From an uncultured Roseobacter sp. (lineage in GTDB: Bacteria > Pseudomonadota > Alphaproteobacteria > Rhodobacterales > Rhodobacteraceae), in the NCBI RefSeq assembly GCF_947493125.1, contig NZ_CANLQB010000003.1:124001-188000 (forward strand): a DNA stretch of 64,000 nucleotides. Reading direction: 5' to 3'. The notes beneath the pieces are model-generated. The model saw nothing but the letters and a program-made list of their open reading frames with translations, was not told the origin of the DNA and made no database searches. A program made the translations under genes and the position numbers. Each line of letters starts with the position of its first letter. Position 1 is the first letter of the stretch. Of this stretch, positions 33,368 through 62,001 are shown piece by piece.

Positions 33368-36300
33368 CTATTCGGCGGCGACGGGGTAGCCTTCGTCGTC
33401 CGGCGTCTTGGGGCGCGCCGTCCCGTTTTTCGCGCTTGCGGCCTCTGCGGAGCCTCCTTCGCTGCGCCGTTCCTTGCGCAGATAGGTGTGGTAGATCGCC
33501 GGGATGCCGATGAGCGTCAGGACGGAGGCGAAGCCGAGGCCCGCCATGATCGCCACTGCCATGGAGGCGAAAAAGGCGTCGGAGAGCAGCGGGATCATCC
33601 CCAGGATCGTGGTTGCAGCCGCGAGGATCACCGGGCGCAACCGGGTGACGGAGGCGGCGACGATGGCGTCGCTCTGTGCCAGGCCCGCCTCGCTTTTCTG
33701 GGTGTCGATCTCCTCGACCAGAACGATGGCATTCTTGATCAGCATGCCCGAGAGGCTGAGCAGGCCGAGCAGGGCGGTGAAGCTGAAGGGCAGGCTGGTG
33801 AACAGCAGCCCGAGACCCACGCCGGTGACGGCCATGGGCACCACCGTCCAGATCACCAGCGTCTGGCGCAGCTTGCCGAAGAGCAGCAGCGTGATCAGGA
33901 ACATCGCACCGAAGGCCAGCGGCATTTGCCGCCCCAGGCTGGCCTGGGCGGTCGAGGCGCTTTCGAACTCGCCGCCCCATTCCATGCGGTAGCCCGGTGG
34001 CAGCGGCATCGCCTCAATGGCGCCGCGCACCTCGGCAAAGGCCTCGGGCGGCAGCACGTCGGGCACGGTGAAGGCCTGGACGCTGACCGTCGGCACCCGG
34101 TCGCGCCGCTGGATCACCACGTCGCGGGTGAGCACGTCGAACCCGTCGACGACCTGCGACACCGTGGTGAAGCTGCCGGCGGCGGGCGCGTAGATCGGCT
34201 GGTCGATCAGCTGCGCGCCGGCGAGCTGTTCCTCTCTGGGGGTGCGGACGATGATCGGGATCAGCCGGTCGGCCTCGCGGAGAACGCCCGCCTGCACCCC
34301 GTCGGTTGCCAGAGCGATGGCCTGGGCAAGATCGCCGCGGCTGATCCCGAGGGTCTGGCCGCGCTCGGCGGCGAAGCGGGGCCGGGAGACCAGTTCCGGC
34401 TCGCGCCAGTCGGTGCGTTCGACGGTCAGAAGGTCGGTCTCGGTTTCGAAGATGTGTTGCGCCTCGGCGGCGAGGCGGCGCAGCACATCGGCATCGGGCC
34501 CGCTGAGGCGGACCTCGACATCGGCGCCGACGGGCGGGCCGTAGATGATCTGTTGCACCCGCGTTTCGGCCCAGGGCAGCAGATCGCGCGCGGCTGTCGT
34601 GGCCGCGTCACGCAGCAGCGGGATGTCGGTGTGGTCCCGCAGGCGGATGACGATCTGTCCATAGGCCGGGTCCGGGTCTTCGGGCGTGTAGGTCAGCATG
34701 AAACGGGTCATGCTGGCGCCGACCGTGGTGGTGACCGCCGTGACCTCCGGGCGGTCCATCAGCCAGCGTTCCATCAGCGCCAGATCGTCGGAGGCGGCGT
34801 GGATCGTCGTGCCCTGTGCGGCATGGTAGTTCAGGTAGACGAGCGGTGTCGTGGCGGGGGGGAAGAACTGCTGCTTGACGAAGCCCATGGCGCCGACGCC
34901 TGCGACCGTAGCGCCGATCAGCGAGACGATGACCAGCCAGCGCAGCCGCAGGGCGCCCCGCACGAGGGCACCGTAGCCGCGGAAGAAGGCGGTGTCGTAG
35001 GGATCTGCGGCGTGCGCCTGATCTGCGGTGCGGAAGAAATAGCTGGCCAGCAGGGGCGTGACCGTGACGGCGAGCAGCCAGGACAGCATCAGCGAGATGC
35101 CGATCACCGCGAAGAGCGAGAACAGGAACTCGCCCGAGCTGTCGGGGCTGAGCCCGATGCCGGCGAAGGCGAGGATGCCGATCACAGTGGCGCCGAGCAG
35201 CGGGAGCTGGGTGCGGCGCGCGACCTCGGCGGCGGCCTCAACGGCCTTGCGTCCGCGGCGCATCTGCACCTGCATGCCTTCGGCCACGACGATGGCGTTG
35301 TCCACCAGCATCCCCATGGCGATGATCAGCGCGCCGAGGCTGATCCGCTCCACCTTGATGTCGAAGAGGTGCATGAAGAAGAAGGTGAAGCAGACGGTGA
35401 GCAGCAGCGAGCCGCCGACCACGATGGCCGCGCGCCAGCCCATGAAGAGCGCCAGCACGCCGATGACCACGGCGACGGAGGTGGCCAGGCTGAGCAGGAA
35501 AGCGTCGTTGGCCGCCGCCACCACGCGGTGCTGTTCGTAGACCGGCGTCACGGTGACCCCGGCGGGCAGCAGCGGCGTGATCTCGTCCAGCCGGTCTTCG
35601 ACGGCGGCACCGACGGTGACGATGTTCTCCGAGGTCAGGCCCGCGACACCCAGGGTGAAGGCCTCTACCCCGTTGTGCCGGATGATCTGGCGCGGCGCTT
35701 CGACCCGCGCGCGCGTCACGGACGCCACATCGCGCAGGTTCAGAACCTCGCCCTGATAGCCGAAGGTCAGCCCGGAGATCGCCTGTGCACTGTCATCGGC
35801 GAGGGGGCTTTCGGTGCGCAGATCGGTCCGGCCCTGACCCAGAGCCCCGGTTGGCGTGATGGTGTCGGCAGCGCCGATGGCCCCCAGCAGAACATCGGGC
35901 GGGATGCCGAGTTCGGTGAGGGTCGGGCTGGAGGGTTCGACGAAGATCGCCTCCTCGGGCAGGCCCAGTACCTCGGCATTGGCGACGCCGGTCACGGACA
36001 GAAGTTCGCGCCGCAGGAAGGTGGCGATGTCCCAGATGTCCGCATCGCTGTAGCCCGGCGCGGAGACCGCGTAGAGCAGGCCGAAGACATCCCCGAAGCC
36101 GTCATTGACCTGCGGTGCCAGGGCGCCGGGCGGCAGGTCGGGCCGGGCGTCGGCGATCCGGTCGCGCAGATCATCCCAGACCTGGGGCAGCTCGGTGCCG
36201 TCATAGGTGTCCTTGATGGCAACCTCGATCACCGACAGGCCGGGCCGGTTGGCCGAGGTGATGACGTCCACCTCATCCATCTGCTGCAGCTCCGCCGCGA

Positions 36301-36499
36301 GCACCTCGGAGACTTCGCTGGCGACCTCATGGGCCGTCGCGCCCGGGTAGGGGGTGATCACCAGTGCGGATTTGAGCGTGAAGACCGGATCTTCGAGCTT
36401 GCCGACGCTCAGGTACCCCGCGGCGCCGCCGAAGAGACAGAAGAGGATCAGCAGCCACGTATAGAGGGGCTTTTCGATGGACAGGCGGGCGATCTGCAT
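33368..36499 (-). CDS. RND efflux transporter permease
   Basis: A 1043-residue RND pump with the expected twelve helices and two large periplasmic loops. The start at the ATG (36499) gives the canonical MQIARLSIEKPLYTWLL. The motif GMLVDNAIVVAEG near residue 400 is the TM4 proton-relay region with its Asp. It belongs to the HAE-type efflux group that exports drugs, dyes or metabolites with proton antiport. It is co-transcribed with the adaptor gene 4 nt upstream; no outer-membrane channel gene is adjacent. An earlier in-frame ATG to 36664 runs into the adaptor gene and is rejected. Confidence 0.92.
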   Translation of the reverse strand: MQIARLSIEKPLYTWLLILFCLFGGAAGYLSVGKLEDPVFTLKSALVITPYPGATAHEVASEVSEVLAAELQQMDEVDVITSANRPGLSVIEVAIKDTYDGTELPQVWDDLRDRIADARPDLPPGALAPQVNDGFGDVFGLLYAVSAPGYSDADIWDIATFLRRELLSVTGVANAEVLGLPEEAIFVEPSSPTLTELGIPPDVLLGAIGAADTITPTGALGQGRTDLRTESPLADDSAQAISGLTFGYQGEVLNLRDVASVTRARVEAPRQIIRHNGVEAFTLGVAGLTSENIVTVGAAVEDRLDEITPLLPAGVTVTPVYEQHRVVAAANDAFLLSLATSVAVVIGVLALFMGWRAAIVVGGSLLLTVCFTFFFMHLFDIKVERISLGALIIAMGMLVDNAIVVAEGMQVQMRRGRKAVEAAAEVARRTQLPLLGATVIGILAFAGIGLSPDSSGEFLFSLFAVIGISLMLSWLLAVTVTPLLASYFFRTADQAHAADPYDTAFFRGYGALVRGALRLRWLVIVSLIGATVAGVGAMGFVKQQFFPPATTPLVYLNYHAAQGTTIHAASDDLALMERWLMDRPEVTAVTTTVGASMTRFMLTYTPEDPDPAYGQIVIRLRDHTDIPLLRDAATTAARDLLPWAETRVQQIIYGPPVGADVEVRLSGPDADVLRRLAAEAQHIFETETDLLTVERTDWREPELVSRPRFAAERGQTLGISRGDLAQAIALATDGVQAGVLREADRLIPIIVRTPREEQLAGAQLIDQPIYAPAAGSFTTVSQVVDGFDVLTRDVVIQRRDRVPTVSVQAFTVPDVLPPEAFAEVRGAIEAMPLPPGYRMEWGGEFESASTAQASLGRQMPLAFGAMFLITLLLFGKLRQTLVIWTVVPMAVTGVGLGLLFTSLPFSFTALLGLLSLSGMLIKNAIVLVEEIDTQKSEAGLAQSDAIVAASVTRLRPVILAAATTILGMIPLLSDAFFASMAVAIMAGLGFASVLTLIGIPAIYHTYLRKERRSEGGSAEAASAKNGTARPKTPDDEGYPVAAE

Positions 36500-36503
36500 G
36501 GGC

Positions 36504-37574
36504 TCAGCCGTCGCCGCGCGTGAGACCGGTATAGCGGCTGACAGAGGCGCCATTGGGCACGGCATGGGCGCCGACGGCCACGAGTTCGGTGCCCGGGTCC
36601 AGAGGGGTTGTGACAAAGCCGGCGCCGGTGGGTGCCGTGACCGAGACCGGGTGGTGCCGTGCAAGCAGACCGCTCTCGCTGTCGTCGATCACCACCACGT
36701 AGCGTTCGCCATCGGGTGTTGTGGCGATGGCGCTGGCTGGCAGGGCGGTGCCGGGCATGGGCGCGTCGATGGTGGCGCGGACGATCAGGCTCTGCCCCGG
36801 TCGGAGGTGCCGGGCCCTCTCGCCCACGATTGCGAGCGAGATGACATAGCTCTGGCCGATCTCGCCGGTTTCGGCCCGGAACTCCCGGAACGCCAGCGGC
36901 AGACGGGCCGTCTCGCCCGGCAAGTGCCCGTCGAAGCGGACGGTCTCGACGTCGCCGAGATGGCGCAGCAGGCGTTCGGGCAGGTCGAATTGCACCCGCG
37001 TTTCCGAGAGATCATGCAGGCGCAGGATGGGCTGGCCCGGGTCGACCACGGCGTGCGGCGAGGCGATGCGATCGGCCACCTGCGCATCGAAAGGTGCGGT
37101 GATCTGCGCATCGGCAAGTGCGGCGCGCGCGTCCCGCAGCTCCACTTCGGCCAGATCGAACGCGGTCTGGGCATCTTCCGCCCGCACCTGCGAGGCAGCG
37201 TTGCGGTCGGCGAGCGCCAGCGCACGGGTCCGAGCGCGGTCGGCCTGCTGCAGTGCCAATTCGGCGCGCTCGACCCGTCGTTCGAACGGGCCGGGGTCGA
37301 GCCGCGCCAGCAGTGTGCCCGCCGGGAGGATCGCCCCTTCGGGCGCATCCAGCATCTCGATCTGGCCGCTGACCTCGAAGGCGAGATCGACAGTATCGCG
37401 CGCGATGACACGGCCAAAGAACTGGCGTTGCATCACTGGATCGGGCGCGGGAACGGTCATCGTGCGCACCGGGATCGGCTGAGCCATCGGCGCCGCGGTC
37501 TGGGCAGGCACCTGTATCGGCAGCAAAACAAGCGATGTGGCTACCAGCAGGCTGTATGTATGGTATTTCCACAT
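36504..37574 (-). CDS. RND efflux periplasmic adaptor (membrane fusion protein)
   Basis: A 356-residue adaptor with a signal peptide cleaved after VPAQ, followed by a biotinyl-lipoyl-like half (FEVSGQIEML), a helical hairpin (VERAELALQQADRARTRALA), the second lipoyl half (ADAQITAPFDAQV) and a beta-barrel. It lies 4 nt upstream of the RND pump gene and is divergent from the TetR gene. Such adaptors couple the pump to a TolC-like channel. Confidence 0.92.
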   Translation of the reverse strand: MWKYHTYSLLVATSLVLLPIQVPAQTAAPMAQPIPVRTMTVPAPDPVMQRQFFGRVIARDTVDLAFEVSGQIEMLDAPEGAILPAGTLLARLDPGPFERRVERAELALQQADRARTRALALADRNAASQVRAEDAQTAFDLAEVELRDARAALADAQITAPFDAQVADRIASPHAVVDPGQPILRLHDLSETRVQFDLPERLLRHLGDVETVRFDGHLPGETARLPLAFREFRAETGEIGQSYVISLAIVGERARHLRPGQSLIVRATIDAPMPGTALPASAIATTPDGERYVVVIDDSESGLLARHHPVSVTAPTGAGFVTTPLDPGTELVAVGAHAVPNGASVSRYTGLTRGDG

Positions 37575-37602
37575 AAGGGGTCCTATCTCTCACAGCATAT
37601 CA

Positions 37603-37616
37603 ACCGACCGTTCGGT
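37603..37616. promoter_or_regulatory. Candidate TetR operator
   Basis: ACCGACCGTTCGGT (37603-37616) is an imperfect palindrome (ACCGA/TCGGT arms) in the 78-nt gap between the divergent adaptor and TetR genes. Similar ACCGA...TCGGT sequences are common operators for TetR regulators of RND pumps. Binding is inferred. Confidence 0.6.
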
Positions 37617-37652
37617 AGGGTAGCTAGGGACAGCCAGGAAAAGGTCAAGAGG

Positions 37653-38270
37653 ATGGCGCGGGAAAACATGACAAAGGACCGTCGGGCGGAAATCGTTGAG
37701 GTGACGACTGGCCTTTTTCTCGACAGCGGGTTTGCGGGCACGTCGATGAGTGCGGTGGCCAGGGCCTGCGGGATCACGAAGGCCACGCTTTATCATCACT
37801 TTCCGGGCAAGGATGATCTCTTCGCCGCCTGCGTGACCCACGGCTATGCCGAGGCGCTGGACCGGGTGCAGGAGATCGCCGCCTCGGACCGCGGTCCGGA
37901 GGACAAGCTGCGCGAGGCGATGGAGGTGCTCTATGACGTCACGATCTGCTCGCCGGTGGGGCGGATGTCGCCGCTGATTGCGGAGGTGGCGCAGGCGTTT
38001 CCGAATGTGGCGCGCTCCTTTCACGACGGTTATGTGGCGCCGCAGCAGGCGCTGATCGCGCGGATCGTCGAGGACGGCGTGGCGCGGGGCACCTTCAGGG
38101 AGATCGACCACAAGCTCTTGTCGCATGTGCTGATGGGCCCCATCGTGACCCTGTCTCTGTCGCGGGAAATGTTCGTCGACTTTAAAGACCTCGACGATCA
38201 CTTCCCCATAGAGCCGCTGAAGCAGGGGCATGTGGAGATGCTGCTGCAGGCGTTGAGACCACCTGGCTAG
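37653..38270 (+). CDS. TetR-family regulator of the RND pump
   Basis: A 205-residue regulator. The N-terminal HTH (FLDSGFAGTSMSAVARAC, about 19-36, then KATLYHHFPGKDDLFAACV) is classical TetR. The C-terminal ligand domain is not diagnostic, but it resembles the AcrR-type C-terminal domain. It is divergent from the pump operon over a candidate operator, so it probably represses the pump. The longer frame from 36477 is antisense to the adaptor gene and is rejected. Confidence 0.9.
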   Translation: MARENMTKDRRAEIVEVTTGLFLDSGFAGTSMSAVARACGITKATLYHHFPGKDDLFAACVTHGYAEALDRVQEIAASDRGPEDKLREAMEVLYDVTICSPVGRMSPLIAEVAQAFPNVARSFHDGYVAPQQALIARIVEDGVARGTFREIDHKLLSHVLMGPIVTLSLSREMFVDFKDLDDHFPIEPLKQGHVEMLLQALRPPG

Positions 38271-38553
38271 GCGGGAGCTTGTCAGGCGCGGCGATTGCGC
38301 CGGAATCCGCCGAGGCCGGGCGGGGGAACGGCGCGTCTCCCGCCGCTTCGTGCGCCGAACCTGTCACCCCCTTTTCGTGACCGGTGCGATGGGCTGTAGT
38401 GATCGCACACGTATGTCGAAGACATCATTTTGGGGTCATTGTGCACGACGCTTTTCCTGCGGCAGGTTTTGCTAAGGTTTTCTCCACGCATGGTTTTCCC
38501 GATGTCCCGGATGCTGTCAGGCGGACCGGGCGTTTCGCCCGGCGGGCGCCTTT
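38271..38553. other. Gap before the type I exporter genes
   Basis: 283 nt without a supported gene. TGTGCACGA at 38439 and an AT-richer stretch around 38405-38490 may hold the promoter of the exporter operon. No clear terminator for the TetR gene was seen. Confidence 0.4.
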
Positions 38554-40242
38554 GTGAGCGCCGCGACGCAGGACCGGGAGACGGCGGAGCAGCCGCGAAT
38601 GGTGCCGCTGTCGTGGTTCGGCAAGACGCTGTGGAAGTTTACGCCGCTCTACGTGGAGCTGGTGTTTCTGGCGATCTGCATTCGCCTGCTGGGGCTGGTG
38701 GAGCCCTTTATCTTTCAGGTCATCATCGACCGCATTCTGCCCTTCGAGCGAGAGGCGACGCTGATCGTGGTGATGGCGGTCTTTGCCGCGGTCAGCGTGT
38801 TTCACATCGGCTTCAACATCCTGTCGAGCCTTTTGGGTATGCTGACCGCCAATCGGGTGACGCGCGAGCTTGGCAGCCGCATTTTTGAACATCTGTTCCG
38901 GCTGCCCTATAGCCATTTCCGCAAATGGCCCATCGGCGAGACAATCGCCCGGGTGAGCGAGACCGACACCATCCGGGCGTTTCTGGTCGGCACCACGACG
39001 GGTGTGTTTCTGGACCTGCTGTTCGTGGTCATCTACATCGGCGTGCTCTTCACGCTGTCGCCGCTGCTGACGACCATTGTGTTGATTTCCCTGCCGCTGC
39101 AGGGGTTTGTCTATTTCATCTTCGGGCCATTCCTGCGCCGTCGCCTGCGGGTGCAGTTCGATGCCGGCGCGCGGCACCAGTCCCGCATGGTCGAGAGCAT
39201 CGGCGGGATCGCCTCGGTCAAGGCGCTGAGTGCGGAGGACAAGATGCTCGGCGGGTTGCGCGAGACCCTGGGTGCCAATCTGGATGCGGGGCTGCGGGTC
39301 GGCAAGCTGCGCATCGCCAGCACCAATCTGATCTATGCGTTGAGCCAGACGCTGACCATCACGATCATCTTCATGGGCGCGCGCGAGGTCTTTGCGGGGG
39401 AGTTGACGCTGGGCCAGCTCATCGCGTTTCACCTGATCGCGGAGAAGGTCGCCTCGCCGATCAGCAATTTTTCGGGCCTCTGGGAGAAGTGGCAGAACAT
39501 CAAGATCTCGCGCCAGAGGCTGGGGGATATTCTGCTTTCGGAGCCGGAACCCTTTGAGGCGCTGCCGCGATTGCCCCACCGGATCGAGCCCGAGTTGCGG
39601 TTCGAGCATGTGGATTTCGCCTATCAGCCGGGCACGCCGATCCTGAAGGATTTCTCCTTCACTGCGCAGGCGCGCAGCCTGTCGCTGGTGGTGGGGCCGT
39701 CCGGGATCGGCAAGAGCACCTTCGGGCGGCTGGCCTCGGGGATCGAGAGGCCCACGGGCGGCGTGATCACGCTGGGTGGCCATGACATCGCGGAGCGCGA
39801 GCCGCATGATGTGCGCACCAAGATCGCCTATGTGCCGCAGGAGCCGTATCTCTTCTCAGGCACGGTGCGGGAAAACCTGTCTCTGAACGTCGAGGAGGAG
39901 GACGCGGTGAGCGACGCGGTGATCATCGATGCGCTGCGCGTGGCGGCGGCGGATACGATGGTCCAGCGCCTGCCGATGGGGCTGGACACGCAGGTGGGCG
40001 AGCGCGGGGCGGCCCTGTCGGGCGGGCAGCGCCAGCGGATCGCCATGGCGCGCTCGCTCCTGAACAGCCCGCGGGTGCTGATCCTCGATGAGCCGACGAG
40101 TGCGCTCGACGGGGCGGCGCAGACCCAGATGGTCACGGAGATCGAACGGCTGAAGGAGACGATGACGGTCATCGTGATCACCCACCGCCCGGATGTCTTT
40201 GCAGCACCCGATCAGGTCGTCGATTTCGAGGCGCTGACATGA
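38554..40242 (+). CDS. Type I secretion ABC exporter (no C39 peptidase domain)
   Basis: A 562-residue fused exporter with a GTG start. Residues 20-310 are the six-helix ABC membrane domain, and residues 340-560 the ATPase: Walker A GPSGIGKST (about 383-391), signature LSGGQRQRIAMARSLL (about 486-501), Walker B VLILDEPTSALDG. It is HlyB/PrtD-like but has no N-terminal C39 peptidase or C39-like domain. It overlaps the HlyD gene by 4 nt. A substrate is not encoded on the same strand; the neighbouring small peptide gene is a candidate. Confidence 0.9.
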   Translation: MSAATQDRETAEQPRMVPLSWFGKTLWKFTPLYVELVFLAICIRLLGLVEPFIFQVIIDRILPFEREATLIVVMAVFAAVSVFHIGFNILSSLLGMLTANRVTRELGSRIFEHLFRLPYSHFRKWPIGETIARVSETDTIRAFLVGTTTGVFLDLLFVVIYIGVLFTLSPLLTTIVLISLPLQGFVYFIFGPFLRRRLRVQFDAGARHQSRMVESIGGIASVKALSAEDKMLGGLRETLGANLDAGLRVGKLRIASTNLIYALSQTLTITIIFMGAREVFAGELTLGQLIAFHLIAEKVASPISNFSGLWEKWQNIKISRQRLGDILLSEPEPFEALPRLPHRIEPELRFEHVDFAYQPGTPILKDFSFTAQARSLSLVVGPSGIGKSTFGRLASGIERPTGGVITLGGHDIAEREPHDVRTKIAYVPQEPYLFSGTVRENLSLNVEEEDAVSDAVIIDALRVAAADTMVQRLPMGLDTQVGERGAALSGGQRQRIAMARSLLNSPRVLILDEPTSALDGAAQTQMVTEIERLKETMTVIVITHRPDVFAAPDQVVDFEALT

Positions 40243-41567
40243 GGCGCGGGGCCGGCGGTCTGGGGGTCGGGTCGCCGACGCTGCACGCGACCGTGCTGTT
40301 CACGCTCTCAGTCTTTGTGGCGATTCTGGTGATGTCCTATGTGCTGAAGGTTGAGATCGTGGCCAAGGGCACGGGCAAGGTGGTGCCGCTGGGGCGCGTG
40401 CAGGTGGTGCAGCCGGAGTTTGCCGGGCAGCTGCGCGCCATTCACGTGCGCGACGGGATACGGGTGCAGAAGGGCGACGTGGTGATCGAGCTGGACCCGA
40501 CCAAGGCGCAGTCGGAGCTGAACACGCTGCAGGCCGAGCGGAAGCGGCTCGAGATCGAGCGGCTGCGGATCGAGACGGTGCTTGCCGCGCTGCCGGCGCG
40601 CGATCACCTGGAGGATGCGGCGATCGCAGCGCATGTAGCGCGGTTTCAGACCCATGCCCCGGAGGCGCAGTCGAGCTTCTTTCGGGAGCAGAGTGATCTG
40701 TTGCGGGCCGAGCTGGTGGAGCTGCGGGACGCGCTGGCGCAGGTCGAGACGCGCCTTGAGGCCAACGCCAAGTCGAAGGCGGTGACCCGCGCCGGGATCG
40801 GGCGGATCGACGCGGCGCTGGAGACCCAGGAAGAGCGGCTGGAGACGGTGCAGAGCCTTCTGGAGAAGGGCACCGCGAGCCGCGCGAACTATCTCGATGT
40901 GTTGGACGGGTTCAACCGGCTGGAGAGCGAGCGCGAGGTGTTCTTCCGCGAACTTGATCAGAAGACGGCGCTCGATGCCTCCTATCTGGCGGAGCGCGCC
41001 GGCATCGTCTCGGCCTTGCGCAGCCGGTTGCAGACGCGGCGGGCCGAGCTCGAGGCGCGCAGCGCGGCGCTCTCCGAAGAGCTGGTGATCAGCCAGCGGC
41101 AGTTGGCCAACACCCGGCTGATCGCGCCGGCGACGGGGGTGATCGACCAGCTGTCGGTCTTCACCATCGGGGGCATCGTGGAGGCTGGTCAGGAGCTTCT
41201 GCGCATCGTTCCCGAAGATCGGGCCTTTGAGGTGGAGGCGATCTTTCCCAATATCGACGTGGGCTTTCTGGAGGTCGGGCAGGCGGCCAATATCAAGCTC
41301 GATGCCTACCCGTCGGAGCGGTTCGGCGCGCTGAAGGGGTGGGTGTCCAACGTGTCGGCGGATTCGATCGAGGTGGGCGAGGGTGCCTTTGGCTTCGTGG
41401 TGCGCATCAAGCCCGAAAGTGCCACGCTGGAGACTGCAGGTGCGAGCCATGCGGTGCAGCCAGGGATGACGGCGGTGGTGGATGTGATCACCGGAGACAG
41501 GCGGCTGATCAGCTATTTCTTTGCGCCGGTTGTGAAGGTCGTCGAGGAGAGTCTGGGGGAGCGATAG
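40239..41567 (+). CDS. HlyD-family type I secretion adaptor
   Basis: A 442-residue adaptor. One N-terminal TM helix (about 17-37) is followed by VEIVAKGTGKVVPLGRVQVVQPEFAG, read here as the first lipoyl half at about 40-65. A long coiled coil spans about 95-290, and the second lipoyl half includes LIAPATGVIDQLSVFTIGG (about 298-316). The C-terminal beta domain ends near residue 435. With the upstream ABC exporter it forms the inner-membrane part of a type I secretion system; the TolC-like channel must be elsewhere. Confidence 0.9.
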   Translation: MRRGAGGLGVGSPTLHATVLFTLSVFVAILVMSYVLKVEIVAKGTGKVVPLGRVQVVQPEFAGQLRAIHVRDGIRVQKGDVVIELDPTKAQSELNTLQAERKRLEIERLRIETVLAALPARDHLEDAAIAAHVARFQTHAPEAQSSFFREQSDLLRAELVELRDALAQVETRLEANAKSKAVTRAGIGRIDAALETQEERLETVQSLLEKGTASRANYLDVLDGFNRLESEREVFFRELDQKTALDASYLAERAGIVSALRSRLQTRRAELEARSAALSEELVISQRQLANTRLIAPATGVIDQLSVFTIGGIVEAGQELLRIVPEDRAFEVEAIFPNIDVGFLEVGQAANIKLDAYPSERFGALKGWVSNVSADSIEVGEGAFGFVVRIKPESATLETAGASHAVQPGMTAVVDVITGDRRLISYFFAPVVKVVEESLGER

Positions 41568-41616
41568 CGGCGCGGGGCGATCCGCGCGCACCGCCTGTCG
41601 GGCGCTCGTCGCGGCT

Positions 41617-42474
41617 CTAGGAGGAGATCTCCCAGGCCCAGCAGCGGGGATCGGCGTAGGCGCCCAGTTTTGGCGCGCGGGTTTCGGCTGCCGCGAGCAG
41701 CGCGTCGAAGTCCGATGTCAGATGCGCGCGCATCTGGGCCATCTTGTGCAGGCCGGAGGTCGACGGGCCGAGCAGCAGTTCCAGCAGGACGATGTCGACC
41801 GTGCAAAATCCGATGGGGTTGTTGTGAAACCACTGCGCGTAGTCGGTGTTGCGCAGGTCCTCGCCCAGCAGGGAGATGATTTCGCGGCTGTCCACGTCGG
41901 AGGCGCGCAGGATGGACTGCAGCAGTTCTTCGGAGAGGATGGAGCGGGCGACATCGCCGGGCATGTCCGCCACGGAGGTGGCGAAAACGAATTCCCGGTG
42001 GCCGGGGCCGGGCAGGCTGACCGAGAGGCCAAGCGCCCAGTCCGGGAACATGGCGTCGGGGTTCGGAGGGGTGCTGCCCACGATGCCGGCGACCAGATCC
42101 AGCAGATCGGCCTGGGCAGGCCGTGCGCCCTGCAACACGTAGAACGTGGTCTTGTCCGCGGGACAATCGGCCAGATCGTCGACCTCGATCTGCCGCCAGT
42201 CGAGGCCGAAGGCCTCGGAGAGGTCAGAGATCAGCATGCTGGCCGGCACCCCGGCGGCGGTGTCCTGCTGGATGCAGAAGGTCTCAGTTCCGGTGCGGAC
42301 GCGCAGGATCGGATCGCTGATCTGCTCGGTCACTTTCGAGGCGAAGGCCCCGTCGAAGATCCGCTCTGCCTGACTGGAGATGTCATCGCGGGCCAGAAGC
42401 GTGCTGGCCAGGGCTGCGAGGCCGCCACAGAGAAGGGCGGCGAGGGTCATGATTTTGAGATGGGATGCCCGCAT
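41617..42474 (-). CDS. Exported protein of unknown family in the peptide-export locus
   Basis: A 285-residue protein with an N-terminal signal or anchor helix (IMTLAALLCGGLAALASTLLA, about 8-28). The C-terminal half has LSEELLQSILRASDVD and VDIVLLELLLGPSTSGLHKM, which faintly recall DUF2927-type proteins (predicted peptidase-like family), but I cannot confirm this. Four Cys in the mature part could form disulfides. It follows the small peptide gene by 60 nt on the same strand. The start at 42474 is preferred because GAGG lies upstream and the hydrophobic helix follows at once. Confidence 0.6.
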   Translation of the reverse strand: MRASHLKIMTLAALLCGGLAALASTLLARDDISSQAERIFDGAFASKVTEQISDPILRVRTGTETFCIQQDTAAGVPASMLISDLSEAFGLDWRQIEVDDLADCPADKTTFYVLQGARPAQADLLDLVAGIVGSTPPNPDAMFPDWALGLSVSLPGPGHREFVFATSVADMPGDVARSILSEELLQSILRASDVDSREIISLLGEDLRNTDYAQWFHNNPIGFCTVDIVLLELLLGPSTSGLHKMAQMRAHLTSDFDALLAAAETRAPKLGAYADPRCWAWEISS

Positions 42475-42534
42475 CGGCGCGCCTCGTTCCTGGGGGTGGG
42501 AGGGGCGTTGCACGCCCCTGCCCGTGACGGTCGA

Positions 42535-42831
42535 TCAGTAGTGCGTGTCGTAGGCGCCCTGGTGGCAGCCGGTACAGCCGCCGATGCTGCCTGTGGGGCT
42601 GTCGGGCCAACCGTTGGCCGCACGGTTCACCTCCTGTGCGGCATGGGCGCGCGTGTCCATTTCCGACCACGCATTTTCGTTGCCGAGCGCATTGTCCAGC
42701 GCCTGTTGTGTGGCGGAGTTGTCGCGGTCCATCTTCTGCGTGATGGCGTCGGGGCCGTCACTGCCGCCGCCGCTGCTGCCACCGCCGCCACAGAAGCTGA
42801 CCGGTGCGTCGAGACCATCGAGATCAAACAT
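42535..42831 (-). CDS. 98-residue glycine-rich peptide with C-terminal CXXCH
   Basis: A 98-residue protein with a good ribosome site (AGGA 8 nt before the ATG). It starts MFDLDGLDAPVSFC, followed by GGGGSSGGGSDGP (residues 15-27), an acidic, Gln/Asn-rich middle (about 32-70), and a terminal block GGCTGCHQGAYDTHY (84-98). Only three Cys are present (14, 86, 89). There is no signal peptide, so if secreted it would use the type I exporter next door. CTGCH is a haem-c-type motif but the protein is far too short and unlike cytochrome c otherwise. It could be a precursor peptide modified or cleaved near its C-terminus. No family is recognised. Confidence 0.6.
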   Translation of the reverse strand: MFDLDGLDAPVSFCGGGGSSGGGSDGPDAITQKMDRDNSATQQALDNALGNENAWSEMDTRAHAAQEVNRAANGWPDSPTGSIGGCTGCHQGAYDTHY

Positions 42832-43029
42832 AGTTCATTTCCTATTCTTCGGGCGGTCCGTCATATATACACCACCCATTGCTGTTTGCCGGACGCGTTG
42901 TCCGGCGGCTCAATCGGCGGGTGGGGAGGCACCCCCGCCCGCCAACTCTCCGGCCTCAGGGGCCGAACTCTCTCACCCGAATGACGGCCGCGGGCAGGGG
43001 TATGCTTTTTTGACGGACAGCGGCGGGGA
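42832..43029. other. Gap between the peptidase and peptide genes
   Basis: 198 nt with no supported gene; frames in it are shadows. It probably holds the promoter for the peptide gene, since ATATATAC at 42865 is the AT-richest stretch. No terminator was recognised. Confidence 0.4.
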
Positions 43030-43869
43030 TCATGCGGCGCAGGCCTCCAGGCCCAGCGCGTGGACGTCTCGGTTGAGCTGGCGCCCGCCCTCGGCGCCGG
43101 CGCGGTAGAGCGCACAGAGGACCTTTGGCGTGCCCTGCGCCATCAGATCGGCGGCGCGCCGGCGGGCGAGCGGATAGTTCCAGTCATATCGGTAGGGCGT
43201 GCGGGCGCCTTGCAGCGCGTGCTGGAGCCGGAGCCTGTCGGCACCGAAATACACGGCGGTGTCCGCGGCGTGGGCTGCGCTCAAGTCGGAGCGTCCGGCG
43301 CTGCAGTGCCGGATCAGAGCCAGCTCGGCCAGAAAGGCGCAGCATTCCCGGGCGATGGGCGGCATTTGTCCCGTCCTGAGCGGCGCGCTCGCCACGATCT
43401 GCAGGGCATGGCCGAATTCATGCGCCATGACCAGCAGATCCCGCGGGCGGTCCCGGTAGTGCAGGCTGACGAAGGGCAACCTGTCATGGCCGAGATTGTA
43501 GGTGAAGGCTTTGGGATGCTTGTCCGCGCGAGGCTGCACGCATTTTGGGGTTTGCGCCTCGGTGCGGTTGACCTCCTCCGCGAGGCCGGGAAAGGCCCTG
43601 CGCATCGCATGGGCGCAGAGTGCCCAGGCGGCCTCGGCTGACAGGCCGTTGTGGCGGTGTCCGGGCCCTGTTTGCGGGACGGGGGGTGGCGCAATCCGGG
43701 CGAGGTGCCGAAGCACCGTGCTGCGGGTCAGGTCGTTCAGGGTGAGCCAGTCGGACGGGCCTGGTTCGGGGCGAGAGGGCGCTTCTCTGACCCGCGGCGG
43801 CGCTGTCGCCTCACCAAGCAATATCTGCAAACCCAATGGCCACACGTCATAAAATCCTGATACCCGCAC
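43030..43869 (-). CDS. Small M3-like zinc metallopeptidase
   Basis: A 279-residue protein with a GTG start. The zinc motif is HEFGH (about 150-154), and the likely third ligand is the Glu of ARECCAF about 24 residues later (about 175). The preceding strand (FTYNLGHDRLPFVSLHY) matches the M3 pattern seen in PepF/oligoendopeptidase F, where a strand runs up to an AHE-GHA-H helix. It is about half the size of typical M3 enzymes. There is no signal peptide. It is on the same strand and just upstream of the 98-residue peptide gene, so it could mature that peptide. Confidence 0.7.
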   Translation of the reverse strand: MRVSGFYDVWPLGLQILLGEATAPPRVREAPSRPEPGPSDWLTLNDLTRSTVLRHLARIAPPPVPQTGPGHRHNGLSAEAAWALCAHAMRRAFPGLAEEVNRTEAQTPKCVQPRADKHPKAFTYNLGHDRLPFVSLHYRDRPRDLLVMAHEFGHALQIVASAPLRTGQMPPIARECCAFLAELALIRHCSAGRSDLSAAHAADTAVYFGADRLRLQHALQGARTPYRYDWNYPLARRRAADLMAQGTPKVLCALYRAGAEGGRQLNRDVHALGLEACAA

Positions 43870-43985
43870 TGTGCCCAGACGCTACGGGCTGCCCTCTTTT
43901 AGTCAACGGATCTTGATCGCGCCCGATTTGGCCCGCGGATTAGCGCCAGTCGGGTGATGTTCTCTGCCGGTCTGCGTCCCGCGGT

Positions 43986-44654
43986 TTGGAACGTGTCTTT
44001 GGGGCGGCGGGTTTTCGCCTTGGATTCGCAGTGATTGTGCAGCCGGTCGCCGAAACGCGCGCGGGCGCTGCGCAGGATGGACAGCGGCGCGGCGTTTTTG
44101 CTGACCTGGCGCGCAGATGGAGCCTGTGGCCGGGGCGCGTGTCCCGGCTCGGGGCCGTTGCCTTTTCGCAGGAGCCTGTGGTGCAGAAGACCTCCGAAAT
44201 CGGCTTTCGTGCCAGCCAGGAGCACGACGTGGATGTCGTGCTCGGCAACCTTGCGGCGCGGACGCTGCGGGAGATGGACCGCTACCTGCGGCATCATCCG
44301 CCGGGCGCCCGGATCGGATTTCTGCGCGAGCACGTCAGCGCGTCGATTGTCGCGGCGCGGTCGGATACGTTTCTGCTGGGGGATGCGCCGGTGGGGATCG
44401 TGACCCATACGCCGGAGCGGGATTACCATTACACCACGGCACTGCCCACGGAGCGGTGTTTCCAGCGGGATTTCCTGCGCATCTCCCGCCGCTATAACCG
44501 GGATCTGGCGGCCAGGTTGGGCACGGCGCTGCGCGCTTACAGCCGTTCCGATCATGCGAAGGTGGCCGCGTGGTTTGCACTCATGGGCTTCCGGTTCGCC
44601 GGGTGGGACGGCGACGCGCGGGTGTTCATCTACGATGCGGTGGGGGCGGCCTAG
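43986..44654 (+). CDS. Putative GNAT-like protein divergent from the M3-like peptidase
   Basis: About 222 residues from a TTG at 43986; in-frame GTGs at 44031 and 44037 are equally plausible starts. The C-terminal part ends HAKVAAWFALMGFRFAG (residue 190-206), a GNAT-type helix leading to the conserved (Y/F)xxxGF loop. The middle (FLREHVSASIVAARSDTFLLG) resembles a beta-hairpin of that fold. It may acylate the peptide of the locus or a host target, but this is inference, and HlyC-type acyltransferases are another possibility. Divergent from the peptidase across about 115 bp. Confidence 0.5.
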   Translation: MERVFGAAGFRLGFAVIVQPVAETRAGAAQDGQRRGVFADLARRWSLWPGRVSRLGAVAFSQEPVVQKTSEIGFRASQEHDVDVVLGNLAARTLREMDRYLRHHPPGARIGFLREHVSASIVAARSDTFLLGDAPVGIVTHTPERDYHYTTALPTERCFQRDFLRISRRYNRDLAARLGTALRAYSRSDHAKVAAWFALMGFRFAGWDGDARVFIYDAVGAA

Positions 44655-44655
44655 G

Positions 44656-45384
44656 TTATCCGGCGGCGTCGAGATGCTGGCGCAGGAGCGGGACAAAGGC
44701 GTCGGGGTTTTCGAGATGCACGGCATGGGCGCAGCGCGGGACGACGGCGAGATGCGTGGTCGGAATGCGCTGCCACAGGGTTTCGATCTGGCGCCAGGGG
44801 TAGGTGCGATCCTGATCGCCCCAGATGATCAGCGTGTCCTGCTGCAGCTTTGGAAGTGCGGCCTCGCCCGACCAATGCTGCATGGCGTCGAGCCCCGCGT
44901 CGATGGCATCGGGGGCGGCGCTCTCGGCGATGGCGGCGCAGCCTTCGTAGGCGGGACAGGCCGTCCCCTCCCGGAACCAGGTCGCGGCGATGCGTCGGGC
45001 GGTCGCGCGCGCTCCGTCAGCCCGGGCGCGTGCCTTGCTTTCTGCGATGGTCTCGAACCGACCGGGCAGCACGCCAATGGCGCCGGTGGCGTAGAGCACC
45101 AGCTGCCGGACCCGAGTGGGTGCCCGGTGGGCCACCTCCTGTACGATCATTCCACCCATCGAATGGCCGAGAAGGTGAAACGCCTCGACGCCGCGGGCCT
45201 GCAGATCGGCGAGCACCCACTCCGCGAAGCCCACGATCGAGGCGATGGGCGGCAGGTGGGCGTTGGCGCCGAAGCCCGGCAGGTCGAGCGCGATGATCGG
45301 GCGCGTGCCCGAGAGCGCTGCGATCTCTGCCTCCCATTGCGCGCTGCCGCCCATGAACCCATGGACCAGCACCAGCGGTGTCAC
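44656..45384 (-). CDS. Alpha/beta hydrolase
   Basis: A 242-residue hydrolase that starts with GTG overlapping the permease stop (GTGA). VHGFMGGSAQW is the oxyanion region, LLGHSMGG the nucleophile elbow (Ser at about 92), and a C-terminal His in RCAHAVHLENP is likely catalytic. A Asp candidate lies in WGDQDRTYPW. The family hydrolyses esters or related bonds; substrate unknown. It is the last gene of an operon with a glycine-betaine-type ABC transporter and a CuyA-type gene. A longer frame to 45627 is antisense to the permease and is rejected. Confidence 0.8.
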   Translation of the reverse strand: MTPLVLVHGFMGGSAQWEAEIAALSGTRPIIALDLPGFGANAHLPPIASIVGFAEWVLADLQARGVEAFHLLGHSMGGMIVQEVAHRAPTRVRQLVLYATGAIGVLPGRFETIAESKARARADGARATARRIAATWFREGTACPAYEGCAAIAESAAPDAIDAGLDAMQHWSGEAALPKLQQDTLIIWGDQDRTYPWRQIETLWQRIPTTHLAVVPRCAHAVHLENPDAFVPLLRQHLDAAG

Positions 45385-46922
45385 TTGCGCTGGCCCTGCA
45401 CGATGCGGTCGAGGATCATGGCGCAGAAGAGGATCGCGAAGCCTGCGAGGATGCCCTGGCCCACATTGGCGTATTGCAGCGCTTCGAGCACGTCTTCCCC
45501 AAGACCCTTGGCGCCGATCAGCGAGGCCACCACGACCATGGCCAGCGAGAGCATGATGGTCTGGTTGATCCCGGCGCGGATCGACGGGCTGGCGAGCGGC
45601 AGATCGACCCGGGTGAGCAGGTACCACTTGTTGGCCCCGAAGGAGATCGCCGCCTCGCGCACGCTTTCCGGCACGCCACGCAGGCCCAGCACGGTCAGGC
45701 GCACCACAGGGGTGCCGCCGAAGATCATGGTGGTCACGACCGCCGCGGGTTTGCCGGTGCCGAAGAAGGCGATCACCGGGATCATGAAGACGAAGGCGGG
45801 CATGGTCTGCATGAAGTCCATGATCGGCTGGATCGCGGCGTAGAATCGCGGCCGTCGCGCGGCAAACATGCCCAGCGGAATGCCGATGAGGATCGACAGG
45901 CAGGCCGCGGTGCCGAGCAGCGCGAGCGTGGTCATCGCCTTTTCCCAGAAGCCGAGCAGGCCCATGTAGGCCAGAAACGCGCTGGAATAGATCGCCATCC
46001 GCACACCGGCGGTGAGCCAGGTCAGCAGGATGATCAGAGCGGCGATCACGATCCAGGGTGTGCTGACGAAAACGATCTCGAGCGCGTCGAGCACGAGGCG
46101 GATCACCAGCGTGATGCCGTCGAAGAGGGCCTCGCCGTTCAGGACGGCCCAGTTGAAGAAGTTCTCGACCCAGTCGATGCTGGTCAGGCGGATGCCGGGA
46201 TCGGTCGGGAAATTGCTGAGCAGATCGAAGCGGCCCGGCAAGCTGTAGTGCAGCATCGCCGCCAGGACGATGAGCCCCATGAAGACCGCGCTGAACACGA
46301 TCTGCGACATGGGCATGCCGGAGCGGATCGAGCGGTCGGACAGCCAGTCGGAAAACCGCGCCTCCAGCACCCAGTTGGCCACGGTGGCCTGGGCGGCTTT
46401 GGCCAGCAGCAGGATGGCGAGGCCAATGAAGGCGATCCAGGGGCCCTGGGCGGCCAGGGCTGCGGCTTCGTCGCGGATGCCGCCGATGTTGGCCTCGAGC
46501 CCTTCCACGGCGCGGCGGAAGGCATCGACCCGGTCGGAGCCGCTCTCGATGGCCGCGGCCAGTTGCTGGCGCCGCAGCTCCAGCGTGCCTTCGATGGAGG
46601 CAATCCGCTCCATGGCGTCGGCGGCCAGATCACCGAAGAGGCCGCGGGCGATCTGCACCAGCGCCAGCGCCTCGAGGATCAGGAACGGCAGCGCCCAGGA
46701 CCACAGGCCGCGCGCGCCGAACCAGATGGGGCCAAACAGCCCGGCCATGAGGTTGAACGTCGGTGTGAAGCGGGCGGAGGCGCCGATCTTGTCGAATTTG
46801 CGGATGTAGTACTCCGGACTGGTGCGCACGAAGGTGCGGATGTTGTCGTGCCGCTCCTTGGCGTAGGCGATGGCGGCGGCGCTTTCGGGATCATCGAGCG
46901 GGTTTACGGTGTCGTCCTTCAT
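45381..46922 (-). CDS. Glycine-betaine-type ABC permease with N-terminal extension
   Basis: A 513-residue permease. The C-terminal 300 residues are the ProW/OpuAB-type domain, with EAA loop FGANKWYLLTRVDLPLASP near 440 and FMQTMPAFVFMIPVIAFFGTG before it. The N-terminal 200 residues hold two helices separated by a coiled-coil-like segment (MERIASIEGTLELRRQQLAAAIES). ProW itself has about 350 residues, so the extension is notable. It overlaps the hydrolase and is 1 nt from the ATPase gene stop. Confidence 0.88.
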   Translation of the reverse strand: MKDDTVNPLDDPESAAAIAYAKERHDNIRTFVRTSPEYYIRKFDKIGASARFTPTFNLMAGLFGPIWFGARGLWSWALPFLILEALALVQIARGLFGDLAADAMERIASIEGTLELRRQQLAAAIESGSDRVDAFRRAVEGLEANIGGIRDEAAALAAQGPWIAFIGLAILLLAKAAQATVANWVLEARFSDWLSDRSIRSGMPMSQIVFSAVFMGLIVLAAMLHYSLPGRFDLLSNFPTDPGIRLTSIDWVENFFNWAVLNGEALFDGITLVIRLVLDALEIVFVSTPWIVIAALIILLTWLTAGVRMAIYSSAFLAYMGLLGFWEKAMTTLALLGTAACLSILIGIPLGMFAARRPRFYAAIQPIMDFMQTMPAFVFMIPVIAFFGTGKPAAVVTTMIFGGTPVVRLTVLGLRGVPESVREAAISFGANKWYLLTRVDLPLASPSIRAGINQTIMLSLAMVVVASLIGAKGLGEDVLEALQYANVGQGILAGFAILFCAMILDRIVQGQRK

Positions 46923-60564: not shown

Positions 60565-61263
60565 ATGTCCGAGTTGATCCTTGCCGGTGATCCCCCCATT
60601 CCGCTGGTCCTGCGGCGTTCGGGGCGTGCGCGGCGGATCTCGCTGCGCATTTCACAGCTCGATGGGCGGGTGACGCTGACACTGCCCAAGGGCATGCCGG
60701 AGCGCGAGGCGCTGGGGTTTGCCCGCGAGAAGGAGCTCTGGATTCGCAAGCACCTGGCGGCACGGGCAGCAGATGTGAGCGTAGGGCTCGGCGCGGAGTT
60801 GCCCGTGGGCGGGCAGGTGCACGAGGTTGTGCCGGGCACCGGGCGCAGGGTGGTCTTTGAGGAGGGGCGCGTGGCGGTGCCGGGCCCGCCCGAGCGTGTG
60901 GGCCGGCGGCTGGCGGGGCATCTCAAGGAGCTGGCGCGAGCGCGGCTGGCGGAGGCCTCGGACAACTACGCGGCGCGGCTGGGGCGCTCTTACAGCGCCA
61001 TCACCTTGCGCGACACGCGGTCGCGTTGGGGCTCCTGCACGGCGGAGGGACGGCTGATGTATTCCTGGCGGCTGATCCTCGCGCCGCCGGAGGTGCTGGA
61101 CTATGTGGCCGCCCATGAGGTGGCGCATCTGGCCGAGATGAACCATTCCGGCGCCTTCTGGACCGAGGTCACGCGTATCTATGGCGATTATGCCGGGCCG
61201 CGCAATTGGTTGCGCACCCATGGAGGCGATCTGCACCGCTACAGGTTCGACAGCGCCGCGTGA
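60565..61263 (+). CDS. YgjP-like M48-type metallopeptidase
   Basis: A 232-residue protein (DUF45/YgjP). RSRWGSCTAEGRLMYSWRLILAP (around 151-173) leads into the zinc motif AAHEVAHLAEMNHSGAFW (about 181-198). The HEVAH motif plus a downstream His/Glu would bind Zn. The N-terminal region (SGRARRISLRISQLDG) is typical of the family. Cytosolic; function not established. Confidence 0.88.
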   Translation: MSELILAGDPPIPLVLRRSGRARRISLRISQLDGRVTLTLPKGMPEREALGFAREKELWIRKHLAARAADVSVGLGAELPVGGQVHEVVPGTGRRVVFEEGRVAVPGPPERVGRRLAGHLKELARARLAEASDNYAARLGRSYSAITLRDTRSRWGSCTAEGRLMYSWRLILAPPEVLDYVAAHEVAHLAEMNHSGAFWTEVTRIYGDYAGPRNWLRTHGGDLHRYRFDSAA

Positions 61264-61280
61264 CTTGACCGATCTGCATT

Positions 61281-61290
61281 TGTGATCACA
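61281..61290. promoter_or_regulatory. Palindromic candidate operator before the GntR gene
   Basis: TGTGATCACA (61281-61290) is a perfect 10-bp palindrome 9 nt before the chosen ATG. FadR-type GntR regulators bind sites of this general form, so autoregulation is possible. Confidence 0.5.
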
Positions 61291-61299
61291 TATGCGCCC

Positions 61300-61950
61300 A
61301 TGATCCTGAACCCGCGCCCCGTCGATGCCACCACCGCCGCGCATGACCGTGTCTATCGCGCGCTGCGCGGACGGATCATGCAGGGCGATCTGCCGCCCGG
61401 CGAGGGGCTGACGCTGCGCGGGATCGGCCGGGCGTATGACGTTTCGATGACCCCGGCGCGCGAGGCGGTGCGGCGGCTGGTGGCAGAAGGGGCGCTGACC
61501 ATGTCCAGCTCGGGCCGCGTCTCGACGCCCGAGCTCAGCAACGAGCGGATCGAGGAACTGGCCGCTCTGCGCGCGCTCATCGAGGTGGAACTGGCCAGCC
61601 GGGCGTTGCCGCGGGCGCATATGGCGCTGATCGAGCGGATGCAGACCATCAACGCCAGTATCGCCGAGGCCGTCGCGCACCGCGATGCGGCCCGCTACAT
61701 CCGCACCAACCTCGAATTCCATCGGACGCTCTACCTGCGTGCGCAGGCGCCTGCGATGCTCGCCATGGCCGAGACGGTCTGGTTGCAGATGGGGCCGACG
61801 ATGCGTGCCCTCTACGGACGGCTGCGCAAGACAGAACCGCCGCAGTTCCACCGGCACATCATCGCGGCGCTGCGGGCGGGGGACGAGCCGGGCTTGCGCC
61901 TGGCAGTCCGGTCGGACGTGACGCAAGGTCTTCGCATGCTGGCCAGCTGA
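61300..61950 (+). CDS. GntR-family (FCD-type) regulator
   Basis: A 216-residue regulator from the ATG at 61300 (a GTG at 61282 is also in frame). N-terminal winged helix: DLPPGEGLTLRGIGRAYD, then MTPAREAVRRLVAEGAL. C-terminal all-helical FCD domain, residues 78-210, with possible metal ligands (RTNLEFHRTLY, FHRHIIAALRAGD). The regulated gene is not certain; the divergent or downstream genes are not an obvious pathway. Confidence 0.88.
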   Translation: MILNPRPVDATTAAHDRVYRALRGRIMQGDLPPGEGLTLRGIGRAYDVSMTPAREAVRRLVAEGALTMSSSGRVSTPELSNERIEELAALRALIEVELASRALPRAHMALIERMQTINASIAEAVAHRDAARYIRTNLEFHRTLYLRAQAPAMLAMAETVWLQMGPTMRALYGRLRKTEPPQFHRHIIAALRAGDEPGLRLAVRSDVTQGLRMLAS

Positions 61951-61984
61951 ATCTTTACCATAGAACCAAAGCACCATTGAATTT

Positions 61985-62001
61985 TTCTACTTTATGTAGA
62001 A
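61985..62001. promoter_or_regulatory. AT-rich inverted repeat upstream of the GNAT gene
   Basis: TTCTAC-TTTAT-GTAGAA (61985-62001) lies in an AT-rich island (about 61950-62030) in the gap between the GntR and GNAT genes. It is a candidate operator or promoter element; no factor is known. Confidence 0.45.

Follow-up and report, generated by a model that had tools for sequence, protein, structure and literature searches.

A conserved gene set for a putative small-peptide type I secretion system with a miniature M3-like peptidase and a structured RNA leader in an uncultured Roseobacter

The window analysed here is a 64,000-nucleotide stretch of the genome of an uncultured Roseobacter sp. (contig NZ_CANLQB010000003.1, positions 124,001 to 188,000), in which an earlier note had proposed an undescribed locus for peptide biosynthesis and export. 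All of the open reading frames (ORFs) on which that proposal was built were located where it had placed them. The plus strand carries a type I secretion ABC exporter of 562 amino acids (aa; 38554–40242) without a C39 or C39-like domain, and a HlyD-type periplasmic adaptor of 442 aa (40239–41567). Facing them on the minus strand, in order of transcription, are a miniature M3-like zinc peptidase of 279 aa with the motif HEFGH (43030–43869), a gene for a 98-aa precursor peptide (42535–42831) headed by a structured 5′ RNA leader (about 42832–42943), and an exported protein with four cysteines, hereafter the 4-Cys protein (41617–42474; the frame opens at 42513 with GTG). A small divergent gene on the plus strand, previously called GNAT-like, completes the set (44139–44654, 171 aa from the GTG at 44139); its frame is open from 43986 and its start is uncertain, being either TTG at 43986 or GTG at 44139. 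Judged by sequence comparison, these six genes appear to form one unit.

The claim of a type I exporter lacking its own peptidase held up. The ABC protein has membrane and ATPase domains (PF00664, E 2.8e-39; PF00005, E 2.1e-29) with the C39 family absent from its Pfam matches, and matched the NCBIfam HlyB model TIGR01846 with 434 bits, the match starting at model position 116 of 694. The adaptor matched TIGR01843 with 304.8 bits (cut-off 208.65), and PADLOC matched the ABC protein alone, by ATPase-type models. The description of the third gene as an M3-like zinc peptidase stood in part. Members of the M3 family carry the zinc motif HExxH in a fold of thimet or PepF type and are about 550–700 aa long. 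The protein in the window matched M3 models only near HEFGH (residues 110–158; TIGR02290, E 1.2e-7), and its profile found an oligopeptidase in the PDB (3ahm, E 3.8e-4) around the same motif. The motif and the surrounding 40–50 residues thus match PepF/oligopeptidase, with no full-length match at 279 aa, and the protein is a short relative of M3 enzymes rather than a full one.

Searches with the M3-like protein led to 11 loci in 10 genomes (L and G numbers denote loci and genomes): the window, L035 (G063), L036/L041 (G025, Pseudoponticoccus marisrubri), L037 (G038), L042 and L043 (metagenome-assembled genomes, MAGs), L044 (Tropicibacter naphthalenivorans), L045 (Vreelandella zhaodongensis, a gammaproteobacterium), L075 and L076 (both G1039) and L077 (G1046). 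Locus L075, from the same genus as the window, has the full set of six with its order unchanged. Identity between the two loci was 90 % for the ABC protein, 81 % for HlyD, 88 % for the precursor peptide, 68 % for the 4-Cys protein and 50 % for the M3-like protein; the divergent gene, conserved at the same place, was 62 % identical over the whole frame and 68 % over 44139–44654. Of the codon changes between the precursor genes, 35 are synonymous and 12 non-synonymous, and because the changes are mostly synonymous the small frame is evidently a real, translated gene, as had been supposed. Comparison with the more distant peptide of G063 (L035) gave 46 identical residues of 86 aligned, 25 of them encoded by a different codon, with identities of 0.60, 0.72 and 0.40 at the three codon positions.

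Across the 11 loci, the M3-like gene lies with ABC and HlyD genes on the fetched stretch in 10 (the pairs of L036 and L037 were identified by Pfam) and beside a peptide of the kind described below in nine, in agreement with the idea that these genes belong together. We also considered that the neighbourhood arose by chance, with the exporter serving another substrate and the minus-strand genes unrelated to it. The genes do lie on both strands, facing each other, and an RTX-like gene, encoding the usual type of type I substrate, is found near the gene set of L044. Against this, the six-gene order is kept in L075, the set is found again, in other arrangements, in Tropicibacter, two MAGs and one gammaproteobacterium, and a conserved RNA leader precedes each of 11 peptides; we regard a chance neighbourhood as very improbable.

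The system is rare: of two overlapping samples searched with the M3-like query, one of 295 genomes contained it in 4 and the other, of 291, in 6. In the first of these, family genomes, 257 matched the peptidase at E ≤ 1e-4, of which four matched strongly (own, G025, G038 and G063; E 2.2e-24 or better); among the matches listed, the remainder had E 1.5e-7 or weaker and were nearly all partial and inside long open frames. An ordinary PepF was ruled out on these grounds, with only four genomes strong and the other listed matches weak and partial. A match in G089 was dropped, as it contains two stops and sits among ATP synthase-like genes (by eye). Only the window's own genome was returned from 385 class genomes queried with the fusion protein of L045, and no new loci came from plasmids (L045 fusion), viral contigs or assembled genome contigs (window peptidase alone). 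An exporter search of 394 family genomes matched the window's own genome, G063 and G220 (69 % ABC identity for the latter two), with three candidates scored per genome, so that some may be missed. Related exporters encoded on plasmids of rhizobia, Azospirillum and Bradyrhizobium were not counted as members of the system.

The precursor peptide of the window consists of an N-terminal MFDLDGLDAPVSF, a Gly-rich stretch, a conserved core and a C-terminal GGCTGCHQGAYDTHY, and ends in CTGCHQGAYDTHY. Searching 295 family genomes with it gave four matches at E ≤ 0.01, including its own genome and G063 (E 1.7e-17). The two weak matches, in G083 (E 0.002) and G092 (E 0.009), had no relevant neighbours in the gene calls and were taken as chance, so no clear homologue of the peptide was found without the neighbouring genes in the genomes searched. 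In total, 11 peptides of 94–117 aa were found in nine of the 11 loci (p1 and p2 mark the peptides of L035 and L044), all with an N-terminal [LF]-x4-SF motif followed by a Gly-rich stretch. The first residue of the motif is L in ten peptides and F in that of L075; our parsing script cut L077 at an earlier SF. When the first eight peptides were aligned, L7, S12, F13, G15, G17 and G84 were invariant, with L075 having F for L7. The C-terminal parts differ among the 11. Five (window, L075, L035p1, L044p2 and L077) carry CTxCH[QN] near the C-terminal end and share invariant C86, T87, C89, H90 and D95. Others have hydrophobic stretches (L043 and L044p1, with Kyte–Doolittle hydropathy (KD) of 1.64 and 1.96), and the peptide of L042 gave a below-cut-off glycine-zipper match (PF13488, E 2.4e-4). 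This was the sole Pfam-matching peptide of the 11 scanned; NCBIfam, run on eight of the 11, gave weak matches for L042 alone, and PHROGs gave no match for the window peptide, the one tested.

Upstream of the first eight peptide genes we found two conserved hairpins with a GATTGAGCCGC-like linker, a structured leader unmentioned in the earlier note. In the eight-leader alignment 92.2 % of cells pair, against a shuffled mean of 83.1 % (0 of 500 as high) and 51.1 % or less in slid controls, and 10 of 18 pairs had changed on both sides; further pair types were within chance (55 of 500). Covariance model R1, built from these eight leaders, matched 42875–42942 in the window's genome with 63 bits (E 2.6e-10), the next match there scoring 19.1 bits. 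It also matched upstream of all three peptides not used in training (58.9, 53.3 and 52.0 bits, E at most 7.5e-10), where weaker opposite-strand matches overlap the same hairpins. A prediction was thereby borne out, as three loci found via the peptidase alone each had such a peptide and leader, and all 11 peptide genes are preceded by a covarying leader. Aligning all 11 leaders gave 93.8 % paired cells and covariation at 11 pairs, in an alignment that was fitted to the model; further pair types were again within chance (121 of 500). Folding of leaders aligned independently with MAFFT recovered both hairpins, with 9 of 16 pairs covarying.

Single-sequence folds were consistent with this picture. 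For seven of the eight leader stretches the native fold surpassed those of all shuffled versions (z −2.97 to −5.16), the leader of the window having z −4.37; the stretch of L035p1, which was cut inside hairpin 1, was no better than shuffles (z +0.53). A third hairpin was seen by eye in seven of eight single-sequence folds, in the window after the R1 match, and is absent from the consensus. No Rfam family reached its gathering score in the eight and three loci, and a known riboswitch was rejected on that basis; a permissive Rfam search of 36000–46000 of the window gave two sub-threshold hits, both away from the leader. A search of 299 phylum genomes with R1 under stricter filters returned the window's own genome alone. 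Candidate roles for the leader are attenuation, translational control or ligand sensing.

The relatives of the locus also link the peptidase to a second enzyme. In seven loci (L035, L042, L043, L044, L045, L076 and L077) the M3-like protein runs into HlyC-like sequence, with a HlyC-type acyltransferase next to it or fused to it, and in L042 and L043 the two parts make one protein of 529 aa. HlyC-type enzymes thus occur in seven of the nine peptide loci. Five of the seven were scanned and matched PF02794 with 88.2–94.7 bits against a cut-off of 25 (L035, L042, L044, L076 and L077), and the corresponding parts of L043 and L045 were assigned by alignment with these five. As a profile, a five-member alignment of HlyC-type enzymes matched the structure of ApxC (4whn, E 3.6e-18). 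The additional HlyC-like half is weak, with Pfam E values of 0.061 (L035) and 0.048 (L077) and no Pfam match in L045 and L076. An hhalign comparison of peptidase alignment A6 with alignment A9 was circular, two A6 rows containing the HlyC domain, and was not counted. A Cupin_8/JmjC-type gene accompanies the set in L044 (8.7e-28) and L077 (2.7e-28), with a weak match in L035 (0.029) and an assignment by eye only in L076; L035 also has an aspartyl/asparaginyl hydroxylase (8.5e-18). HlyC genes of Acaryochloris and Roseibium were not counted as part of the system.

The earlier note proposed that the product of the GNAT-like divergent gene modifies the peptide. Modification by an acyltransferase-type enzyme is now better supported, because seven relatives hold HlyC-type enzymes beside or fused to the peptidase; the GNAT label of the divergent gene was not confirmed, and it is at most a possible acyltransferase. 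The distribution of lysines may bear on the target. Lys6 of the leader peptide is present in seven of nine peptides from HlyC loci and in neither of the two from loci without HlyC, a pattern that hints at chemistry and, coming from related sequences and small numbers, is suggestive only. Peptide L035p2 is free of lysine throughout, and those of L043, L076 and both of L044 also lack it outside the leader. For these peptides the leader lysine or a freed N-terminus would then be the likelier target.

Downstream of the peptides, the partner genes follow the type of peptide. A 4-Cys protein comes directly after each of the five CxxCH peptides, and none was recognized behind the remaining six, as judged by eye and by alignment A14 in a non-exhaustive comparison. 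The protein of the window has a hydrophobic N-terminal stretch at residue 8 (KD 1.98) and no Pfam, NCBIfam or PHROG family. Such a stretch is present in four of the five 4-Cys proteins, the window's included, the called start of L077 being without one. The 4-Cys partners carry a degenerate zinc motif, EExxQ or EExxH (QELFH in L044). Behind L035p2 and the peptide of L076 lie different exported-type proteins, which carry EELGH and HELYH respectively. Short ORFs follow the peptides of L042, L043, L044p1 and L045, and all seven of those tested contain a hydrophobic stretch (KD 1.60–2.71 over 19 residues). By analogy, the arrangement of one partner per peptide resembles bacteriocin–immunity pairs, and the 4-Cys protein is perhaps the partner of the CxxCH peptide with a role in immunity. 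A match of the 4-Cys protein to DUF2927 was not significant (probability 0.7 %); a separate exported protein in L035 (11166–12020) is a DUF2927 member (4.9e-9). A second weak relative of the 4-Cys protein was also seen elsewhere in the window's genome (contig C2, 14310–14642, L067; E 3.7e-5).

These partners invite another explanation for the CxxCH branch, namely a secreted metal- or haem-binding peptide with no antimicrobial activity, in which CTxCH[QN] binds the ligand and the 4-Cys protein handles the peptide in the periplasm. The five residues invariant in all CxxCH peptides and the restriction of the 4-Cys partner to these peptides would fit such a role, as would the strong conservation of the peptide between the window and L075 relative to its partner and the M3-like protein, which is unlike a fast-changing toxin. 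On the other hand, c-type haem is attached in the periplasm, which type I export bypasses; the N-terminal motif and RNA leader are common to the hydrophobic, bacteriocin-like peptides; and no siderophore, haem or copper genes were recognized in the loci by eye, no search for them having been made. We consider this explanation doubtful. The CxxCH branch, to which the window belongs, is the least understood part of the system.

Two loci lack a small peptide of this kind. In L036 (10622–13819) and L037 (6042–8882) the M3-like gene lies near genes for giant ([DN]Ex)n proteins of 1065 and 946 aa, with 307 and 270 triplets making up about 90 % of the core, together with an ABC/HlyD pair and a gene resembling 2-oxoglutarate (2OG)-Fe(II) oxygenases (TIGR02466, 2.6e-72, in L036); we know of no system that combines a giant ([DN]Ex)n protein with an M3-like gene. 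The N-termini of the giant proteins in G025 and G038 contain LDAPISF or LAGISF, and the similarity of LDAPISF in G025 to LDAPVSF in the window was not equalled in 3000 shuffles. A link between peptidase and leader is supported by these cases, because M3-like genes there adjoin giant proteins with LDAPISF or LAGISF N-termini. They are also what might be expected if the product were an adhesive or aggregating surface component rather than a weapon, with the M3-like protein serving type I substrates in general as a processing enzyme, and the bacteriocins of the Cdz system do form surface aggregates (PMC5380434). A structural role fits poorly with 11 peptides of 94–117 aa that each seem, by eye, to have a partner gene next to them in a toxin–immunity pattern, and with short membrane-type ORFs beside four peptides; we judge it unlikely.

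Several known systems offer points of comparison. The Cdz bacteriocins of Caulobacter (CdzABCD, CdzI) are glycine-zipper proteins exported by a type I system, and they share with the present set the small proteins (PMC5380434), ABC/HlyD export, small membrane immunity candidates and a patchy distribution. The size range given for Cdz-like proteins is 60–151 aa beside ABC/HlyD; here Gly-rich proteins of 94–117 aa accompany ABC/HlyD. A glycine-zipper match, below cut-off, was obtained for one of our 11 peptides (L042). Cdz-like leaders, according to the same source, end in G[G/A/S] and need no modification enzymes, whereas SF precedes a Gly-rich run here and the set pairs a C39-less ABC protein with an M3-like protein and an acyltransferase.

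Class II (IIb) microcins such as MccE492, MccH47 and MccM similarly send a small precursor through a type I exporter. According to PMC3281104, HlyC-family proteins MceI/MchD (PF02794) take part in microcin maturation and their partners MceJ/MchC are SelO-like, a siderophore being attached to a Ser/Gly-rich C-terminus (see also PMC7472721). A lysine-acyltransferase and Dcp lie near the microcins of a Serratia class II cluster (PMC13101503), the closest published parallel that we found for this pairing, and export of class II microcins uses a peptidase-bearing transporter (PMC13101503, PMC8277102). In contrast, the present exporter is without C39, and an M3-like partner stands beside the HlyC-type enzyme in seven relatives. 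Dcp is itself an M3 peptidase. No SelO-like or siderophore gene was recognized in our loci, and no search was aimed at them. The N-terminal region here ends in SF before the Gly-rich run, unlike class II microcin leaders, which are of double-glycine type and cleaved by a C39 peptidase in the exporter. By analogy, the system probably works like Cdz and the class II microcins while falling outside the class II definition, which includes a C39-bearing exporter.

Operons for RTX toxins (HlyC-HlyB-HlyD) likewise combine a HlyC-type acyltransferase with a HlyB/HlyD-like exporter; here the peptides are of about 100 aa, the exporter is without a C39-like domain and HlyC is beside or fused to a peptidase. 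Selidamides are lipopeptides modified by GNAT enzymes and belong to the ribosomally synthesized and post-translationally modified peptides. Acylation of a ribosomal precursor by a GNAT-type enzyme would fit the idea put forward originally, the GNAT of the window itself being unconfirmed. The locus had been called undescribed, and we likewise found no known annotation covering the set in Pfam, NCBIfam and PHROGs as run, nor a description of it in the open-access literature among the matches listed.

Taken together, we give about an even chance to a small-peptide type I secretion system of the microcin or bacteriocin type, with the M3-like protein standing in for C39 and the precursor modified by an acyltransferase. 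Under this model the 98-aa precursor would be made behind the structured RNA leader, and the miniature M3-like protein would recognize [LF]-x4-SF and the Gly-rich region in place of C39, removing the leader near SF|Gly or at least binding it. A dedicated acyltransferase would modify the precursor, HlyC-type in seven relatives and perhaps the divergent gene product in the window. The product would leave the cell through the C39-less ABC/HlyD pair and an outer-membrane channel encoded elsewhere, possibly for killing, and the 4-Cys protein (for CxxCH peptides) and the short membrane-type proteins (for other peptides) may be immunity or handling partners.

A number of observations weigh against this model. 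The CxxCH peptides, five of the 11, do not look like membrane-active bacteriocins or pore formers, and the peptides of the window, L044p2 and L045 are without a hydrophobic stretch (KD 0.42, 0.54 and 0.49). Four of the eight peptides counted have no lysine in the core, so that a HlyC-type target in them is not obvious. No HlyC gene is present among the set in the window or L075, which have the divergent gene instead. The family matches of that gene were sub-threshold (DUF1999, E 0.12; phrog_308, E 0.1), and neither an NCBIfam family nor a credible match in the PDB was obtained for it; DUF1999 is a GNAT-fold family. Nor is it HlyC, since it had no PF02794 match and an hhalign probability of 0.3 % against the HlyC alignment. 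A HlyC search of the window's genome was uninformative, recovering none of 14 controls, and the AlphaFold models of the 4-Cys protein and the divergent gene product were too poor to use (pLDDT 37.6 and 35.8). The 14 kb fetched for L076 contain no ABC/HlyD pair, the same genome having one in L075. In L036 and L037 the product encoded near the peptidase is giant, acidic and repetitive, so that the peptidase does not go with small peptides exclusively. Lastly, the RTX-like gene of L044 (3914–6064, minus strand, four repeat matches), which lies at least 3 kb from the set, could be a second substrate of that exporter; a pattern search found no RTX-like repeats in the other loci with the set, and a frame with two matches to the pattern at 60652–61986 of the window is far from it.

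A bolder version of the model, distinctly unlikely in our estimate, posits ribosomal peptides of a new class, lipidated and exported by a type I system. A bifunctional M3–HlyC protein would bind the leader, acylate Lys6 (in most HlyC loci) or the residue freed at SF|Gly, and pass the product on to the C39-less exporter. Each precursor would be under control of the two-hairpin RNA, a hitherto undescribed element, and the CxxCH branch would use another transferase in place of HlyC, its peptide perhaps acting as an apocytochrome c mimic or metal binder. Should the microcin- or bacteriocin-type model be correct, it would describe a peptide-export system whose exporter is without C39 and is paired with a miniature M3-like protein that either adjoins a HlyC-type acyltransferase or forms one protein with it. 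It would also suggest that the acyltransferases known for activating toxins have small peptides among their substrates beyond the MceIJ/siderophore route. Precursors with little protein sequence in common can be sought through their RNA leader, and the CxxCH branch poses the puzzle of which function a near-invariant, cytochrome-like motif has in a predicted secreted peptide.

Some further observations concern the wider surroundings of these genes. On pSymB of S. meliloti (L047, 7269–10786 and 6790–7125), ABC and HlyD genes occur with an annotated toxin-activating lysine-acyltransferase, and frames for a 55-aa Gly-rich and a 54-aa hydrophobic product lie nearby; a peptide with the SF–Gly motif was looked for at this locus and not found, and the locus may be a distant relative. 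Two exported-type M16-like genes precede the ABC gene in L042, L043 and L045 (by Pfam for L045 only, the others by eye), as they do, by eye, in fragment L054 of G220. The peptide loci in L042 and L043 lie behind phage-tail-like genes recognized by eye (32–772 and 2–2514, respectively), so that they perhaps border on a cluster belonging to a gene transfer agent or a prophage.

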